Shown here: positions 4,022 through 10,979 of the stretch, one piece after another
How the letters are laid out: each line of letters opens with the position of its first letter
Position numbering within the stretch: the stretch's first letter is position 1
Source of the DNA: a bacterium
Lineage (GTDB): Bacteria; CAIWAD01
DNA: 10,979 bases
Direction: 5' to 3'
Assembly (NCBI GenBank): GCA_030685015.1
Contig: JAUXWS010000086.1
Span: forward strand, 1 to 10,979
Translations under genes and position numbers: made by a program
Notes under the pieces: model-generated
The model's database searches: none
What the model saw: only the letters and a program-made list of their open reading frames with translations
Told to the model about the DNA's origin: nothing

Positions 4022-4055
4022 CTCTCACCTCGCGATTTGGCGCGAAGGCGGCGCG

Positions 4056-5486
4056 TCAGACCGGCCGGCCTTCCACATGGGTGACGACGCCCCGGAGGGT
4101 GAAGGAGCTGACCTCCGCCACCCGCACCGTGACCAGGGTTCCGGCCGGCCAGCGCGGGTCCGCGGGGACCACCACCACCCGGTTGCAGGTGGTGCGGCCC
4201 ATGAGTTCAAGGTCACTCTTTTTGCTGGGCGATTCAATCAACACTCCGTAGGAGCGGCCCAGGCAGGCGGCCGCCTTTTCATCCGTGATGCGCCGCTGCA
4301 GGTCCACCAGGCGGCGCAGGCGGCGCTTCTTCCCGGTGGATGGCACGTCGTCCGCCCACTTGGCGGAGGGGGCGCCCTCGCGCGGGCTGTACTCGAAGGT
4401 GAAGGCCGAGTCGAAGCGCACGCGCTCCACCAGCCTCAGGGTGTCCTCGAAGTCCGCCTCCGTCTCGGTGGGAAAGCCGACGATGATGTCGGTGGAGAAG
4501 CCCATCTCCGGCAGGGCGGCGCGGGCGCGCTCCACCAGCCGGGCGAAGTCCTCGTGGCTGTAATCCCGGCGCATGAGCCGCAGCACGCGGTCGTTGCCGG
4601 CCTGCATGGGCAGGTGCATGTGCTTGCAGACCTTGGGGTTATCCGCCATCTGGCGGATCATCGCCTCGCTGAAATCCTTGGGATGGGGGCTGGTGAAGCG
4701 GATGCGGTCGATCCCATCCACCTCGGCGACCGCGGCGAGCAGCTCCGGGAAGCGCGCGCCGTCGGATTGTCCAGCCGCCAGGACGGGTGCCCCGGGCAGG
4801 CCCCGGGCAGGCCCCGGGCCGGTGTCCAGTTCCCCATCCAGCTGGGCCGGCCGCCACTCCGGATCGCGGTAACTGTTGACGTTCTGGCCCAGCAGGGTCA
4901 CCTCGCGGAAACCCTCCGCCGCCAGGCGGCGGCACTCCTCCACCACGCTGGCCACGCTGCGGCTGCGCTCCCGGCCGCGGGTGAAGGGCACGATGCAGAA
5001 GCTGCACATGTTGTCGCAACCCCGCATGACCGTCACCCAGGCGTTGGGTCCGCCGCCCCGGCGGGGATAGATCTCGTCGTAGTTCTCCGTCTTGTCCCGC
5101 CGCGTGAGGATGATCTGCGCCTCGCGCCCCACCACCAGGTCGCGGATGACGCCCGGCAGCTTGCGGTACTGGTCGGGACCCATCACCAGGTCGACGTGGG
5201 GCAGGCCGGCGGCGATCTTCTCCGACAAGTGCGTGCTCATGCAGCCCAGCACCCCCAGGATCATGTCGGGGCGCTCCTGCTTGAGCCGCTTCCAGCTGGC
5301 CAGCTGGCCGATGACCCGCTGCTCGGCGCCCTCGCGCACGGCGCAGGTGTTGACCAGCACCACGTCGGCGCCCTCCAGCCCCTCCTGGATGGCGTGGGCG
5401 TCGTCCTCCAGCAGGCGGGCCACCAGCTCGCTGTCGGACACGTTCATCTGGCAGCCGTAGGTCTCGATATAAACCTTGAGGGACAC
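4056..5486 (-). CDS. miaB: tRNA (N6-isopentenyl adenosine(37)-C2)-methylthiotransferase MiaB
   Basis: A radical-SAM enzyme that adds a methylthio group to N6-isopentenyladenosine at tRNA position 37. The N-terminal UPF0004 domain carries Cys12 (YGCQMN), Cys48 (NTCAVRE) and Cys82 (LGCMS), the ligands of the auxiliary cluster. The radical-SAM motif is RGCDNMCSFC with Cys157, Cys161 and Cys164. The C-terminal TRAM-like domain ends near VTVRVAEVSSFTLRGVV. With the GTG start the protein is 476 residues, close to E. coli MiaB (474). I prefer GTG at 5486 because AGAGGA lies just upstream and the protein then starts at SLKVYIETYGCQMN, as in the family; the frame stays open to 5639 but that part has no family similarity. 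Residues about 209-243 form an extra Gly/Pro/Ala-rich insertion. It is the first gene of the miaB-lapA-lapB-SPOR operon. Confidence 0.95.
   Translation of the reverse strand: MSLKVYIETYGCQMNVSDSELVARLLEDDAHAIQEGLEGADVVLVNTCAVREGAEQRVIGQLASWKRLKQERPDMILGVLGCMSTHLSEKIAAGLPHVDLVMGPDQYRKLPGVIRDLVVGREAQIILTRRDKTENYDEIYPRRGGGPNAWVTVMRGCDNMCSFCIVPFTRGRERSRSVASVVEECRRLAAEGFREVTLLGQNVNSYRDPEWRPAQLDGELDTGPGPARGLPGAPVLAAGQSDGARFPELLAAVAEVDGIDRIRFTSPHPKDFSEAMIRQMADNPKVCKHMHLPMQAGNDRVLRLMRRDYSHEDFARLVERARAALPEMGFSTDIIVGFPTETEADFEDTLRLVERVRFDSAFTFEYSPREGAPSAKWADDVPSTGKKRRLRRLVDLQRRITDEKAAACLGRSYGVLIESPSKKSDLELMGRTTCNRVVVVPADPRWPAGTLVTVRVAEVSSFTLRGVVTHVEGRPV
4790..4822. repeat. Three tandem 11-bp repeats inside miaB
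   Basis: Three head-to-tail units: CCCCGGGCAGG at 4790-4800 and 4801-4811, and CCCCGGGCCGG at 4812-4822. They encode part of the non-conserved insertion of MiaB (about residues 222-233, GPGPARGLPGA). Because the unit length is not a multiple of three, gain or loss of one unit would shift the reading frame. Confidence 0.9.
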
Positions 5487-7683: not shown

Positions 7684-7829
7684 GCAGGCCGCCCGCCGCG
7701 GCGGCGCTATGGGCGGAGGGGGCGCCCGCGTCGTGGATCGTGAGGCGTTCGCCGAAGGCCTGGTGGCTGGCGCGCACCGCGCCGCTGTCCCAGATGCCCA
7801 GGTAGCCGAGGCCGCGCCCTGGCAGGCAA
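7684..7829. other. Short region between the ATPase and the MazF remnant, possible gene debris
   Basis: The minus strand can be read as GLGYLGIWDSGAVRASHQAF and GERLTIHDAGAPSAHS without a stop, which looks more protein-like than the neighbouring shadow frames, but there is no start and I recognise no family. It may be the worn end of an older gene or chance. No terminator is evident between the converging ATPase and mazF frames. Confidence 0.3.
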
Positions 7830-8180
7830 CTATGGGAGGCCCAGCACCAGCCGCAGCGCGTTCTCCACGGCGCACAGCTCAGCGGCGCTGAGCCGGGTCA
7901 AGGGACCCTCCCCCAGGCGCCGCCGGTCAATGGTGCGGGGCTGGTCGGTGAGCACCACGCTGTCCTGGAGCAGCCGGTCACGGGCGCCCAAGCGGATGAA
8001 CAGCTCGCCCGCAGGCATGGTCATCGTGCTCAAGGGCAGGACGACGACCAGGGGCGTGACGGCCTCGGACAACTCGTCCGCCTGGATCACCAGCGCCGGA
8101 CGGATCTTGCCCAGTTCCTCGCCGCGCGCGGGATTGAAGTTGGCGACTCACACCTCGCCGCGGCGAATCATCGCCACCAT
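7830..8180 (-). pseudogene. mazF: MazF/PemK-type toxin with an in-frame TGA
   Basis: The frame from the ATG at 8180 reads MVAMIRRGEV, then TGA (8150-8148), then VANFNPARGEELGKIRPALV, IQADELSEAVTPLVVVLPLS and so on to a TAG at 7830. The pattern GEVWxANxxP ... GKxRPALVIQ ... VVVLPLST is that of MazF/PemK endoribonucleases, and the TGA replaces the conserved Trp codon (TGG to TGA). The full frame would encode about 116 residues, a normal MazF length. The ATG overlaps the antitoxin gene by 13 bp. Genes all around use TGA as a true stop, so recoding to Trp is unlikely. An internal start giving a shorter product from 8090 would lack the N-terminal strand and the RPA segment. I regard the toxin as inactivated by a nonsense mutation or affected by a sequencing error. 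Confidence 0.82.
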
Positions 8181-8464
8181 CCTTGGTTGTCGGGGCTTGG
8201 CGAAGTCCGCGCCGGACCAGTCTCCTCATCAAAGCCGTCATCCAGGGTCTCCTCCGCCCGGGCGAGCGCCTCCCGGCGGCTCGCCGGATCCCCGTAGGCC
8301 CCTTGCAATTCCGCCACCGCGCCAGCATAGCGGCGCTGGCGCTCGGCGCCAGCCAGGTACTCCAACAGGGCTTGACGGACCAACTGGGACCGCGTCCGGC
8401 CGCTTCGCCGGGCCTCCGCCTCCAACTCGCCCTCCAGGGCCTCGCCCAAGCGCAGACTGATCAT
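8168..8464 (-). CDS. Ribbon-helix-helix (CopG/MazE-like) antitoxin
   Basis: A 98-residue protein. The N-terminus MISLRLGEALEGELEAEARR, followed by SGRTRSQLVRQALLEYLAG, is a ribbon-helix-helix DNA-binding domain (strand ISLRL, helix 9-20, turn SGRTRS, helix 26-38). The remaining part is charged and helical, as expected for a toxin-wrapping tail. It should bind and neutralise MazF and repress its own promoter. The ATG at 8464 is preferred over the adjacent GTG at 8467 because AGGTGG lies at a better distance. The 3' end overlaps mazF by 13 bp. It is intact although the toxin frame is interrupted, so it is now an antitoxin without an evident partner. Confidence 0.85.
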   Translation of the reverse strand: MISLRLGEALEGELEAEARRSGRTRSQLVRQALLEYLAGAERQRRYAGAVAELQGAYGDPASRREALARAEETLDDGFDEETGPARTSPSPDNQGWWR

Positions 8465-8506
8465 CACGCCACCTGCAAGTCATTTCGTATTGCGATTTGT
8501 GGGCGG

Positions 8507-8535
8507 ATTGTACTACTCCCCGCAAGACATGTCAA
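8507..8535 (-). promoter_or_regulatory. Sigma-70-type promoter of the toxin-antitoxin operon
   Basis: On the minus strand a perfect -35 box TTGACA (8535-8530) is followed after exactly 17 bp by TACAAT (8512-8507), one base from consensus. It points to the antitoxin start at 8464. The palindrome GACATGTC (8526-8533) overlaps the -35 box and may be part of an operator for the antitoxin. Such a strong promoter suits an autorepressed operon. Confidence 0.83.
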
Positions 8536-8731
8536 GCCGGCGCTGGCGGGAGCCTCCTGCACGGCCGGTCATCCGCTCCCGACCTAGCGCCAGGCCGTGG
8601 CTTCCACCCAGGCATCCCGGATCAGTCGCACGAGTTGCCGGTCTGCCCAGGCCCCTGCCGCGGCGGGTGCCACCATCTTCGGCGGATGGGTGGCGCGCCC
8701 CACGGCCGCCCATTCGCCCCAATCCGTTGGT
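8536..8731. other. Non-coding or decayed stretch upstream of the toxin-antitoxin promoter
   Basis: No intact gene. The minus strand can be read as GAWADRQLVRLIRDAWVEAT near the left part (about 8587-8660), without a recognisable family. It separates the toxin-antitoxin operon from the DUF4143 fragment and the DGR, and looks like accessory-gene debris. Confidence 0.35.
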
Positions 8732-8773
8732 GAGGATTTGGGTGATCTGTGGGAAAAAGACTTGGTGGTGTGA
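8702..8773 (+). pseudogene. Remnant of a second DUF4143-type ATPase gene
   Basis: The plus strand reads SPQSVGEDLGDLWEKDLVV followed by TGA at 8771-8773. This matches the segment PPSLREDLGALWENYLVV of the ATPase at 7378-7431: ten of the last 13 residues are identical. Nothing before 8702 or after 8773 continues the similarity, so only about 20 codons of the gene survive. The DNA differs at many third positions, so it is a separate, diverged copy and not a recent duplication. Confidence 0.6.
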
Positions 8774-8820: not shown

Positions 8821-8848
8821 TGACGGGGGTGCGTCAGCACCCCCGTCA
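8821..8848. terminator. Perfect 12-bp stem-loop downstream of the DGR template
   Basis: The arms TGACGGGGGTGC (8821-8832) and GCACCCCCGTCA (8837-8848) enclose a four-base loop. On the minus strand it lies about 110 bp downstream of the template region, where the DGR transcript should end. There is no U-tract on that strand; on the plus strand CTCTTT follows. It may be a terminator, or it may belong to the stem-loops that accompany DGR recipient sequences, which also have short stems with four-base loops. Confidence 0.5.
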
Positions 8849-8849
8849 C

Positions 8850-8950
8850 TCTTTGCCGCCACGTGGCGGGCGGGACGGTCATCGGGACCCCTGTTGGAAA
8901 TCGTGGCAATGCCACGCGGCCGCGGTGTCCGTGAAGACCGCGGATCAGCC
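8850..8950 (-). other. Region 3' of the DGR template with two stem-loops
   Basis: Directly downstream of the template on the minus strand are two inverted repeats: CCGCGGT/ACCGCGG (8920-8926 with 8937-8943, ten-base loop) and CGTGGCA/TGCCACG around one base (8902-8916). In the Bordetella phage DGR, RNA immediately 3' of the template is needed for cDNA priming and binding of the reverse transcriptase-Avd complex. These stems are candidates for that role; this is inference from position. Confidence 0.45.
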
Positions 8951-8952
8951 GC

Positions 8953-10077
8953 TCAGGGGTGCTGCAGAGACGGAAGCCGTTGTTGTTGTTCGTGTTCGAC
9001 GGGTTGTTGTTGTTGCGATTGGCGCATGGCAGGTTGGTCGCGTTGTTGTTCCAACTGCCGCCCCGTATGACACGGTTGGAGCCGCCTGAGATGATCGCCC
9101 TTGAAGATGTCCCTCCTCAGATTCAGACTATTCCAGGCGCACAGGTTCGCCAGCACGCTCTGGGCGCAGGCCGCAAGCTCGTCCTGGGTCTTCCAGCCCT
9201 GACGGCTTTCCCATTCCCGTCTTGCCAAGCCGCACAGGCTGCGCTTCAGATTCTCGCGGCGCAGGCGGATCGTGCCGGCAAAAATGCGCGTGCCCAGGAA
9301 AGACAAGCCGTGACGCCGCTGGTTGAGACGCGTGGCCTTCGCCTTCAGGGTCAGACGCTGGTGTTCCCACAGCCAGGCCTCCAGGCGCGGCAGCAGGTCC
9401 TTCAGCGCCTGGCGGTCGTCGTGGAAGAGCACGAAGTCGTCCATGTAGCGGACGTAGCCCGGCACCCGCTCCTCGTGGAACAGCCAATGATCGAAGCCGT
9501 CCAGGTAGACGTTGGCCAGGAACTGGCTGGTCAGGTTGCCGATGGGCAGGCCGGGGTGTTGTGGATCGCAACGCAGGATGCGTTCCAGCAGCGCCAGCAG
9601 TCGTTCGTCCGACACCTGGTTGCGCAGCAGGTCCATCAGGATGTCGAGGTCGATGCTGGCGAAGTAGGAGCGGATGTCGCTCTTCAAGTACCAGCGGTGC
9701 TGGCGCAGCAGGCCTTGCGCGCGGCGCACGGCCCGATGTGTGCCCTTACCCTTGCGCGTGGCGTAGGAGTCCTCGATGAAGCTCTCCTCGTAAAGCGGCT
9801 CCAGCACGGCCACCACGGCGTGGTGCACCACGCGATCGCGAAAGGGCGCCTCGGCGATCAACCGTGGCTTGGGCTCCCGCACGGTGAAGGTGCGGTAGCC
9901 GCCGGGCTGATAGGTGTTCGCCACCAGTTCGTCCTGCAGACGCAGCAGCTCCTCCTCCAGGTGGAAACCGAAGGCCAGACAGGCCTCCGAGCCGCCAGCG
10001 CCGCGCCGTGCCCGTTCCCAGGCCCGTAGCAAGCCGCTGAAGGATACGACCTCGTCGAAGAGCTCAACCGGTGGCAT
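8953..10077 (-). CDS. DGR reverse transcriptase
   Basis: A 374-residue reverse transcriptase. Visible motifs in order: RTFTVREPKPRLIAEAPFRD (62-81), the first catalytic Asp in LKSDIRSYF (Asp134), LPIGNLTSQFLANVYL (177-192) and the catalytic box YMDD (211-214). The SQ after LPIGNLT is the signature that separates DGR enzymes from group II intron and retron relatives, which have PQG. These enzymes copy the template RNA with infidelity at adenines. Residues from about 329 to the stop are encoded by the template region itself read in a different frame, giving a Gln-rich tail (QSQQQQPVEHEQQQRL). The ATG at 10077 overlaps the avd end by 14 bp; GGAGG lies 11 bases upstream. The partner is Avd. The enzyme looks complete and active. 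Confidence 0.95.
   Translation of the reverse strand: MPPVELFDEVVSFSGLLRAWERARRGAGGSEACLAFGFHLEEELLRLQDELVANTYQPGGYRTFTVREPKPRLIAEAPFRDRVVHHAVVAVLEPLYEESFIEDSYATRKGKGTHRAVRRAQGLLRQHRWYLKSDIRSYFASIDLDILMDLLRNQVSDERLLALLERILRCDPQHPGLPIGNLTSQFLANVYLDGFDHWLFHEERVPGYVRYMDDFVLFHDDRQALKDLLPRLEAWLWEHQRLTLKAKATRLNQRRHGLSFLGTRIFAGTIRLRRENLKRSLCGLARREWESRQGWKTQDELAACAQSVLANLCAWNSLNLRRDIFKGDHLRRLQPCHTGRQLEQQRDQPAMRQSQQQQPVEHEQQQRLPSLQHP
8958..9090 (-). other. DGR template region (TR), FGE/C-type-lectin type
   Basis: Read on the minus strand from 9086 the sequence encodes GGSNRVIRGGSWNNNATNLP followed by CANRNNNNPSNTNNNNGFRL and CSTP. The RGGSWNNN ... NGFR pattern is typical of templates for formylglycine-generating-enzyme-like C-type-lectin folds. 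Fourteen Asn codons (AAC or AAT) are present; adenine mutagenesis of AAC can give many amino acids but no stop codon. The GC-rich 3' end with few adenines (about 8958-8978) would be the part that pairs with the recipient (IMH-like). Boundaries are estimated because no variable region is available for comparison. Confidence 0.9.
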
Positions 10078-10402
10078 GCTTGAGCCAGCCTCCCGTCATG
10101 CGACCGGCCTCCAGCAGCCCCCGGGCGGCGAACTCGTACTGGGCGTCGCTCAGGTAGTGGCGACGATGGCAGAGGCGCGTCAGCACGCGCAGTTTCTCCA
10201 ATGTCAGGTTGAGGCGCTGCAGGATCGGTGCGCGCTCCTTGGTGTAGGTCGCCTCGATGATCGCTTCCAGCACGTCCAGCGCCAGGTTGGCCATGCGCTG
10301 GCTGATGGTGAAGCGGGCGTCCTTGGGGAAGCGCTCCAGCCGGTCCAGCAGCCAGTCCAGGAAGCGGTTCCAGTGCGTGAAAAGGGGCAGCTCATCCGCC
10401 AT
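10064..10402 (-). CDS. avd: DGR accessory variability determinant (Avd), four-helix bundle
   Basis: A 112-residue basic, all-helical protein, MADELPLFTHWNRFLDWLLD at the start, with helices about 5-25, 28-52, 55-80 and 83-108. This is the size and pattern of Avd/S23-type four-helix-bundle proteins. Avd forms a pentameric barrel that binds nucleic acid and the reverse transcriptase and is needed for mutagenic retrohoming. Its place directly before the reverse transcriptase, with a 14-bp overlap, confirms the call. The ATG at 10402 has GAGGTGA upstream and lies inside the end of the HRDC gene (11-bp overlap). I rely mainly on context and helix pattern, because Avd proteins vary in sequence. Confidence 0.88.
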   Translation of the reverse strand: MADELPLFTHWNRFLDWLLDRLERFPKDARFTISQRMANLALDVLEAIIEATYTKERAPILQRLNLTLEKLRVLTRLCHRRHYLSDAQYEFAARGLLEAGRMTGGWLKHATG

Positions 10403-10880
10403 CGCTCACCTCCGTTGCCGGCTCTTGCGCGGGTAACTCCACGGGCGGCGGCGCGGCTGCTTGGCCCTCCTCCCGCAGCAGGCCAAGCAGCGCCTTGCCG
10501 TAGCGCGCCAGTTTGCTCTTGCCGATGCCGCGAATGGAGCGCATCGCCTCCAGCGACTGCGGCCGCCGCCGCGCCAGTTCTTCCAGCTCGCGGTTGGTGG
10601 CCACCACGTAGGCCGGCAGTCCCTGTTTCTCCGCCACGCCGAAGCGCCATTCCTTCAGGCGCTTGTAGGTGGCCGTCTGCTCGGCGTCCAGCCATTCCGG
10701 TAGCGCCTCGCCCTGTGCAGCCTCGTCGTACTCCACCCACACCGTCCACCAGGCCTTGCCTTTCCAGGCAAAAAACTCGGCCCGTTTCTGCGTCACGCTG
10801 CGCGTGGCGCAGAAACGGTTCAAATCCTCCTCCTGGAACAACTCGCGTTCTGCATCAAACGAAAGGGTGAAAATCCTCAC
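10392..10880 (-). CDS. HRDC-domain protein of the DGR
   Basis: A 162-residue protein from the GTG at 10880. The N-terminal part (1-60; VRIFTLSFDAERELFQEEDL, then EFFAWKGKAWWTVWVEYDE) is a small domain common before HRDC in DGR-linked proteins. An HRDC domain follows (about 70-137): YKRLKEWRFGVAEKQGLPAY, VVATNRELEELARRRPQSLE and the helix-hairpin-like MRSIRGIGKSKLARYGKALL. HRDC domains bind nucleic acids and occur in RecQ and RNase D. HRDC proteins are known DGR companions of undetermined role. The tail is Pro/Ala/Glu-rich. The start is uncertain: an ATG at 10913 with GAGGTGGG before it would add METCRWHSLLP, and the frame is open to 10967. The gene overlaps avd by 11 bp. Confidence 0.82.
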   Translation of the reverse strand: MRIFTLSFDAERELFQEEDLNRFCATRSVTQKRAEFFAWKGKAWWTVWVEYDEAAQGEALPEWLDAEQTATYKRLKEWRFGVAEKQGLPAYVVATNRELEELARRRPQSLEAMRSIRGIGKSKLARYGKALLGLLREEGQAAAPPPVELPAQEPATEVSDGG

Positions 10881-10979
10881 CGGCAACAGGCTATGCCACC
10901 GGCAGGTTTCCATCCCACCTCGCCGCCGCTTCGCTCGGGGCGGGCGGGACGGAAACATGCTCTCCAAAGGGTAAAAGGG
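10881..10979. other. Right edge, upstream of the HRDC gene
   Basis: About 100 bp holding the possible alternative HRDC starts and, presumably, its promoter. There is no match to the template region, so the variable region of the DGR is not within this stretch. No clear promoter is visible. Confidence 0.4.

Follow-up and report, generated by a model that had tools for sequence, protein, structure and literature searches.

An HRDC-type DGR at a contig end, with FGE-fold targets elsewhere in the genome and a covarying hairpin downstream of its template

What does a diversity-generating retroelement (DGR) diversify when all of its core components are in place and no target gene lies beside them? 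This question is raised by the locus at the right end of the window, i.e., the whole stretch of 10,979 nucleotides that was analyzed, which is the entire contig C86, one of 105 contigs of a 3.61-Mb genome. The preliminary description recognized a DGR core of reverse transcriptase (RT), Avd, an HRDC protein and an Asn-codon-rich template repeat (TR), and motifs together with family matches confirm it. The window contains a complete DGR of the known HRDC-containing type, with the minus-strand transcription order HRDC (10880-10392), Avd (10402-10064), RT (10077-8953) and TR (9085-8958). Its features are as follows.

10392..10880, minus strand: HRDC-domain protein (PF00570, E 4e-20), with homologues at the same place in related DGRs
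10064..10402, minus strand: Avd accessory protein (NF033474, 104 bits against a cut-off of 80; also bAvd, PF22296)
8953..10077, minus strand: DGR reverse transcriptase with YMDD and LPIGNLTSQ (RVT_1, PF00078, E 3e-19), its final ~46 codons inside the TR
8958..9085, minus strand: TR, 128 nt with 38 A, IMH*-like 3' end GGCTTCCGTCTCTGCAGCACC, with adenine-specific differences to the variable repeats (VRs) on C88 and C52
8961, minus strand: TR/VR polarity marker, AGC in the TR and AGG in the VRs, the same C-to-G step in C88, C52, C67 and the inspected HRDC-type loci
8821..8848, no strand assigned: perfect 12-bp inverted repeat, read from the sequence

The RT carries the [IVL]GxxxSQ and YxDD motifs of the DGR type and can be aligned over its full length with other DGR RTs, and accessory genes of both kinds, Avd and HRDC, are present. 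The HRDC gene likely starts with the GTG at 10880, in a frame that stays open to 10967, and the 12-bp inverted repeat is a possible terminator of the DGR transcript. Read in the target frame, the TR gives GSNRVIRGGSWNNNATNLPCANRNNNNPSNTNNNNGFRLCST. It includes 15 AAC/AAT codons, and at none of its codons could adenine mutagenesis create a stop. The template is thus Asn-codon-rich, as had been described, but it does not stand apart from the RT, since it overlaps the 3' end of the RT ORF. Self-comparison found no second TR copy within the window, in agreement with the earlier observation that nothing template-like occurs elsewhere in it; as the window is a whole contig, however, the lack of a target inside it carries no information on the genome. 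The search for tRNAs near the loci read gave none.

For comparison, an RT search by two-RT alignment yielded 80 loci on genome contigs and 17 on viral contigs; a single-sequence RT protein scan of the genome and viral contigs gave no matches, and three genomes of the same genus or family had no RT of this kind.

The check proposed earlier, a genome search for TR matches with mismatches at adenines only, returned matches on contigs C67, C88 and C52. At C88:30580-30704, 26/37 adenines and 1/87 other bases are changed (Fisher p 5e-17), the sole non-adenine change being the AGC-to-AGG step at the 3' end; at C52:3218-3344, the counts are 22/38 adenines and 9/89 other bases (Fisher p 4e-8). Both are TR/VR pairs of the adenine-confined kind expected of a DGR, which bears out the suggestion of distant or multiple (trans) targets. 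The diversified protein, previously called unknown, can now be named: both matches are the 3' ends of FGE-sulfatase-fold genes and hence protein C-termini, the position of a VR in a C-type-lectin/FGE-fold target, and PF03781 is present in the C52, C67 and C88 targets.

The first C52 gene (L046 457-3351) combines Peptidase_S8 with FGE, so that the diversified domain sits on a subtilase; no such subtilase (S8)-FGE fusion is named as a DGR target in the literature searched. The second C52 gene and the C88 gene encode FGE proteins with likely signal peptides (judged by eye), and the FGE domain of C52 matches Treponema denticola TvpA (2y3c) with E 1e-18. Given its nine non-adenine differences, C52 may be an old or little-used target. 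The C88 target is located downstream of a phage-type integrase gene, at a distance of ~260 bp. Beside it just the first part of an HRDC gene remains, which gives it the look of a once complete copy that is now supplied in trans.

The C67 match belongs to a second, sister DGR, with an RT 62% identical and the order FGE(VR)-HRDC-Avd-RT-TR, i.e., with its FGE target directly upstream of HRDC; its VR differs from its own TR at 18/28 A versus 4/100 non-A positions. The C67 template (TR2) does not qualify as donor of the C88 and C52 VRs, from which it differs at 27/99 and 36/99 non-A positions. Two VRs carry frameshifting indels relative to their TRs, a 4-nt deletion in C88 (L003 1500-1625) and a 1-nt insertion in C67 (L048 around 4042-4176); these may be real errors or assembly-merged variants, and some copies may be dead or mis-assembled.

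The loci around the DGR had been described as decayed, and they are.

7709..8770, no strand assigned: segmental-duplication debris (DUF4143 fragment, RHH, MazF, 5' remnant of an S8-FGE target), repeating C76 1-521 and C52 1-921

DUF4143 is spread over more than one frame, the first 26 profile positions are missing from the MazF frame, and an S8-peptidase remnant occupies 7709-8154. This last segment matches the start of C52 at 92-98% identity but has lost most of the S8 gene to a deletion, and the start of C76 is a copy of window 8253-8770 (92%). By these matches, the decayed loci are debris of a segmental duplication common to C52 and C76. Elsewhere in the window, between the MutS and SPOR genes (317-1700), several related non-coding repeats of 100-420 bp with perfect palindromes (CTTTCTTTTCGCGAAAAGAAAG) were observed.

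Duplication debris all around the DGR, the frameshifted C88 and C67 VRs and the truncated HRDC gene next to the C88 target would fit an inactive relic, in which RT, Avd and HRDC look intact while retrohoming has stopped. We consider this unlikely: 26 of 37 adenines of the TR are altered in the C88 VR against 1 of 87 non-adenine positions, and copying has therefore been recent relative to drift; every core frame and the RNA hairpins are intact. The DGR may, as the preliminary description suggested, be maintained.

Where, then, is the target in cis? Two elements lie at the right edge of the window, directly before HRDC.

10906..10956, minus strand: post-VR inverted repeat (cruciform/hairpin), which also follows the C88 and C67 VRs
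10957..10979, minus strand: C/T-rich (TTTTACCC)n tract, cut by the contig end; the same tract follows the VRs of C88, C67 and several relatives

The stem sequence shared by C86 and C88 differs from that of C67, with complementarity kept; polarity marker and inverted repeat are otherwise present, the hairpin being weak or absent behind the C52 VR. C/T-rich units (e.g. TTTTACC) were seen between VR and inverted repeat in C88, C67, L058, L059, L060, L063, L064, L087 and L099. In C88, the window-end sequence starts 27 nt after the VR marker base. Moreover, the last 54 nt of C86 and the last 53 nt of C52 recur exactly at the two edges of a 485-bp C88 stretch that includes the VR, and the first 53 nt of C52 exactly match the window at 8154. 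Such constant short overlaps at contig ends are the break pattern of a k-mer assembly graph at repeats. The cis VR is absent from the assembly under a contig of its own, and the shared 485-bp stretch, assigned to C88, may be a merge of copies.

The gene expected at this place is well defined by related loci. Among 16 other HRDC-type loci, counted only where at least 350 bp could be read upstream of HRDC, an FGE gene precedes HRDC in 15, and a VR was detected in 14; several of these contigs stop within that gene. For C86, the sequence upstream of HRDC is off-contig; C67 has an FGE gene at this place, and C52 and C88 link to the window end. Whether C52 or the left part of C88 joins C86, the gene before HRDC would be an FGE target. 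Four HRDC-type DGR contigs (L055, L058, L087, L099) likewise end inside or just upstream of the FGE target, and VR-linked assembly breaks look recurrent. As the post-VR elements lie at the window edge and the contig ends are shared with C88, it is very probable that a cis target, a gene for a lectin-fold (FGE) surface protein, begins off-contig, about 25 bp beyond 10979. The missing target in the window is then an assembly effect.

A purely trans-acting DGR, whose cis target was lost and whose core serves remote VRs alone, would also be targetless here. Its VRs on C88 and C52 do sit on other contigs and match the window TR, remote targets are known in T. denticola (PMC4891356), and trans activity was proposed for Thiohalocapsa PB-PSB1 (PMC10907252). 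Nevertheless, we regard this as improbable, since the post-VR inverted repeat and C/T tract stand at the window edge, the same sequence runs on in C88 into an FGE VR 27 nt away, and a cis FGE target is nearly always retained there in HRDC-type DGRs. That the TR matches are ordinary FGE paralogues with a conserved C-terminus can practically be dismissed: FGE is common in this genome (17 matches), and the paralogues on C41, C90 and C28 align along the TR length, but they differ at 18-21/38 A and 28-31/88 non-A positions (p 0.01-0.11) versus the strong adenine excess of C88, and the AGC/AGG marker has the same position as in other DGRs. The FGE paralogues on C41, C90, C28, C59, C57, C46, C94 and C105 were rejected as extra VRs, showing no clear adenine bias.

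With an off-contig cis target as the preferred reading, the simplest order suggested by the contig ends is C76(rc)-C52-shared stretch-C86(rc), in which the DUF4143 fragment-RHH-MazF-S8 5' part would form direct repeats flanking the DGR and its targets. Tandem or circular repetition of the entire cassette, an idea raised by the match of the C52 start to window 8154, was set aside, C76 being the simpler left neighbour.

The least expected finding is a covarying hairpin downstream of the TR.

8920..8943, minus strand: conserved hairpin with a 10-bp stem and CACG loop, CCGCGGTCTT-CACG-GACACCGCGG, downstream of the TR
8903..8915, minus strand: second short hairpin, GTGGC-AUU-GCCAC, also in the C67 DGR (GTGGCTTGACCAC)

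Counting at least 9 of 10 pairs plus a YANG loop, the form of the 8920-8943 hairpin occurs in 23/42 related loci, those with the TR at or after the RT end, compared with 0.26% of random windows of the same loci. In these 23 sequences, pairing holds in 96% of cells and double changes number 80, versus 22 in shuffles, and pairing falls sharply once the register slides; as this set was picked by pairing, the random-window rate and the covariance-model test weigh more. The covariance model, built from these sequences, finds the hairpin in loci outside its building set, with E down to 1e-5, and all matches with E below 0.1 lie on the RT strand. The hairpin shows strong covariation and is kept across many phyla. 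In loci of the Omnitrophota type, its place is directly behind Avd, and the TR follows 120-200 nt later. YANG-loop hairpins were observed at L084 5629-5655, L115 5657-5683, L088 675-701 and L110 2838-2864; in Omnitrophota-type DGRs, the hairpin 5' of the TR is often followed by a GTCCAG box. At the trans target loci the hairpin is absent. It is also absent from Rfam, which at gathering cut-offs matched nothing in the window and near the TR gave chance-level matches only.

The spacer of Bordetella phage BPP-1 contains, at the same 17-nt offset, a 7-bp UACG hairpin with one bulged base, GCCAA-C-GC-UACG-GC-UUGGC (pairing judged by eye). Tentatively, and with a likelihood we place somewhat below even, the spacer hairpin (10-bp stem, YANG tetraloop plus G, usually GA) could be an uncatalogued equivalent of the BPP-1 element that serves as an RT-Avd loading signal and is positioned 5' of the TR in Omnitrophota-type DGRs. 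If so, template RNAs of DGRs could be recognized by it across phyla, also where no TR/VR pair is visible.

Taken together, the locus is very likely an HRDC-type DGR acting on secreted FGE-fold proteins, whose C-terminal lectin-like face it diversifies, with one target in cis and others in trans. Gene content, adenine-specific TR/VR differences, the polarity marker, inverted repeats, shared contig-end sequence and covarying hairpins support this directly. In BPP-1, the spacer 3' of the TR both recruits RT-Avd and primes cDNA, and the post-VR inverted repeat raises homing (PMC12875486, PMC3240598); for the RNA structure, PMC12875486 refers to Handa et al. 2025. By analogy with BPP-1, a presumed transcript would comprise the TR and a 3' spacer with the hairpin 8920-8943, and RT and Avd, if currently active, would copy the TR with misincorporation at template adenines. 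HRDC probably aids DNA strand opening or homing, a strand-opening role having been proposed in T. denticola (PMC4891356). The mutated cDNA would then replace the VR of an FGE gene at the AGC/AGG-marked homing site, with help from the post-VR inverted repeat, in the predicted cis target past the contig end and in the trans targets on C88 and C52, the latter subtilase-fused; the FGE face may in turn bind variable ligands.

HRDC accessory genes, FGE targets, several and remote targets and post-VR hairpins are already known. The T. denticola TvpA system (PMC4891356, PDB 2y3c) shares the HRDC accessory gene and the use of one TR for several targets, some of them remote; there, however, HRDC lies between TR and RT, whereas the window has the order HRDC-Avd-RT-TR with the TR overlapping the RT end, and here one target is subtilase-fused. 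BPP-1 (PMC3240598, PMC12875486) has in common RT with Avd, a structured spacer 3' of the TR and an inverted repeat after the VR; in contrast to the window DGR, its order is avd-TR-RT without HRDC, its target is the phage protein Mtd, and its post-VR stem measures 8 bp versus at least 14 bp here. Thiohalocapsa PB-PSB1 and DGRs of related conflict systems (PMC10907252) also have FGE/CLec targets, with several DGRs in one genome, duplicated loci and candidates for trans targets; the proteins described here differ in being S8-FGE proteins of secreted type and FGE proteins with signal peptides, in which no STAND, TIR or vWA domain was found. A 'targetless' DGR of a draft genome can thus be an assembly artefact, and surveys that need TR and VR on one contig miss such DGRs because near-identical target copies around the VR break contigs; Roux et al. 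(PMC8144416) noted that their own survey would miss remote targets. Against these known systems, the less usual traits are the subtilase-fused target and the conserved spacer hairpin: the first makes for a concrete multi-target DGR system that includes a subtilase-lectin fusion, and the second is a testable candidate RT-Avd recognition element outside Bordetella.
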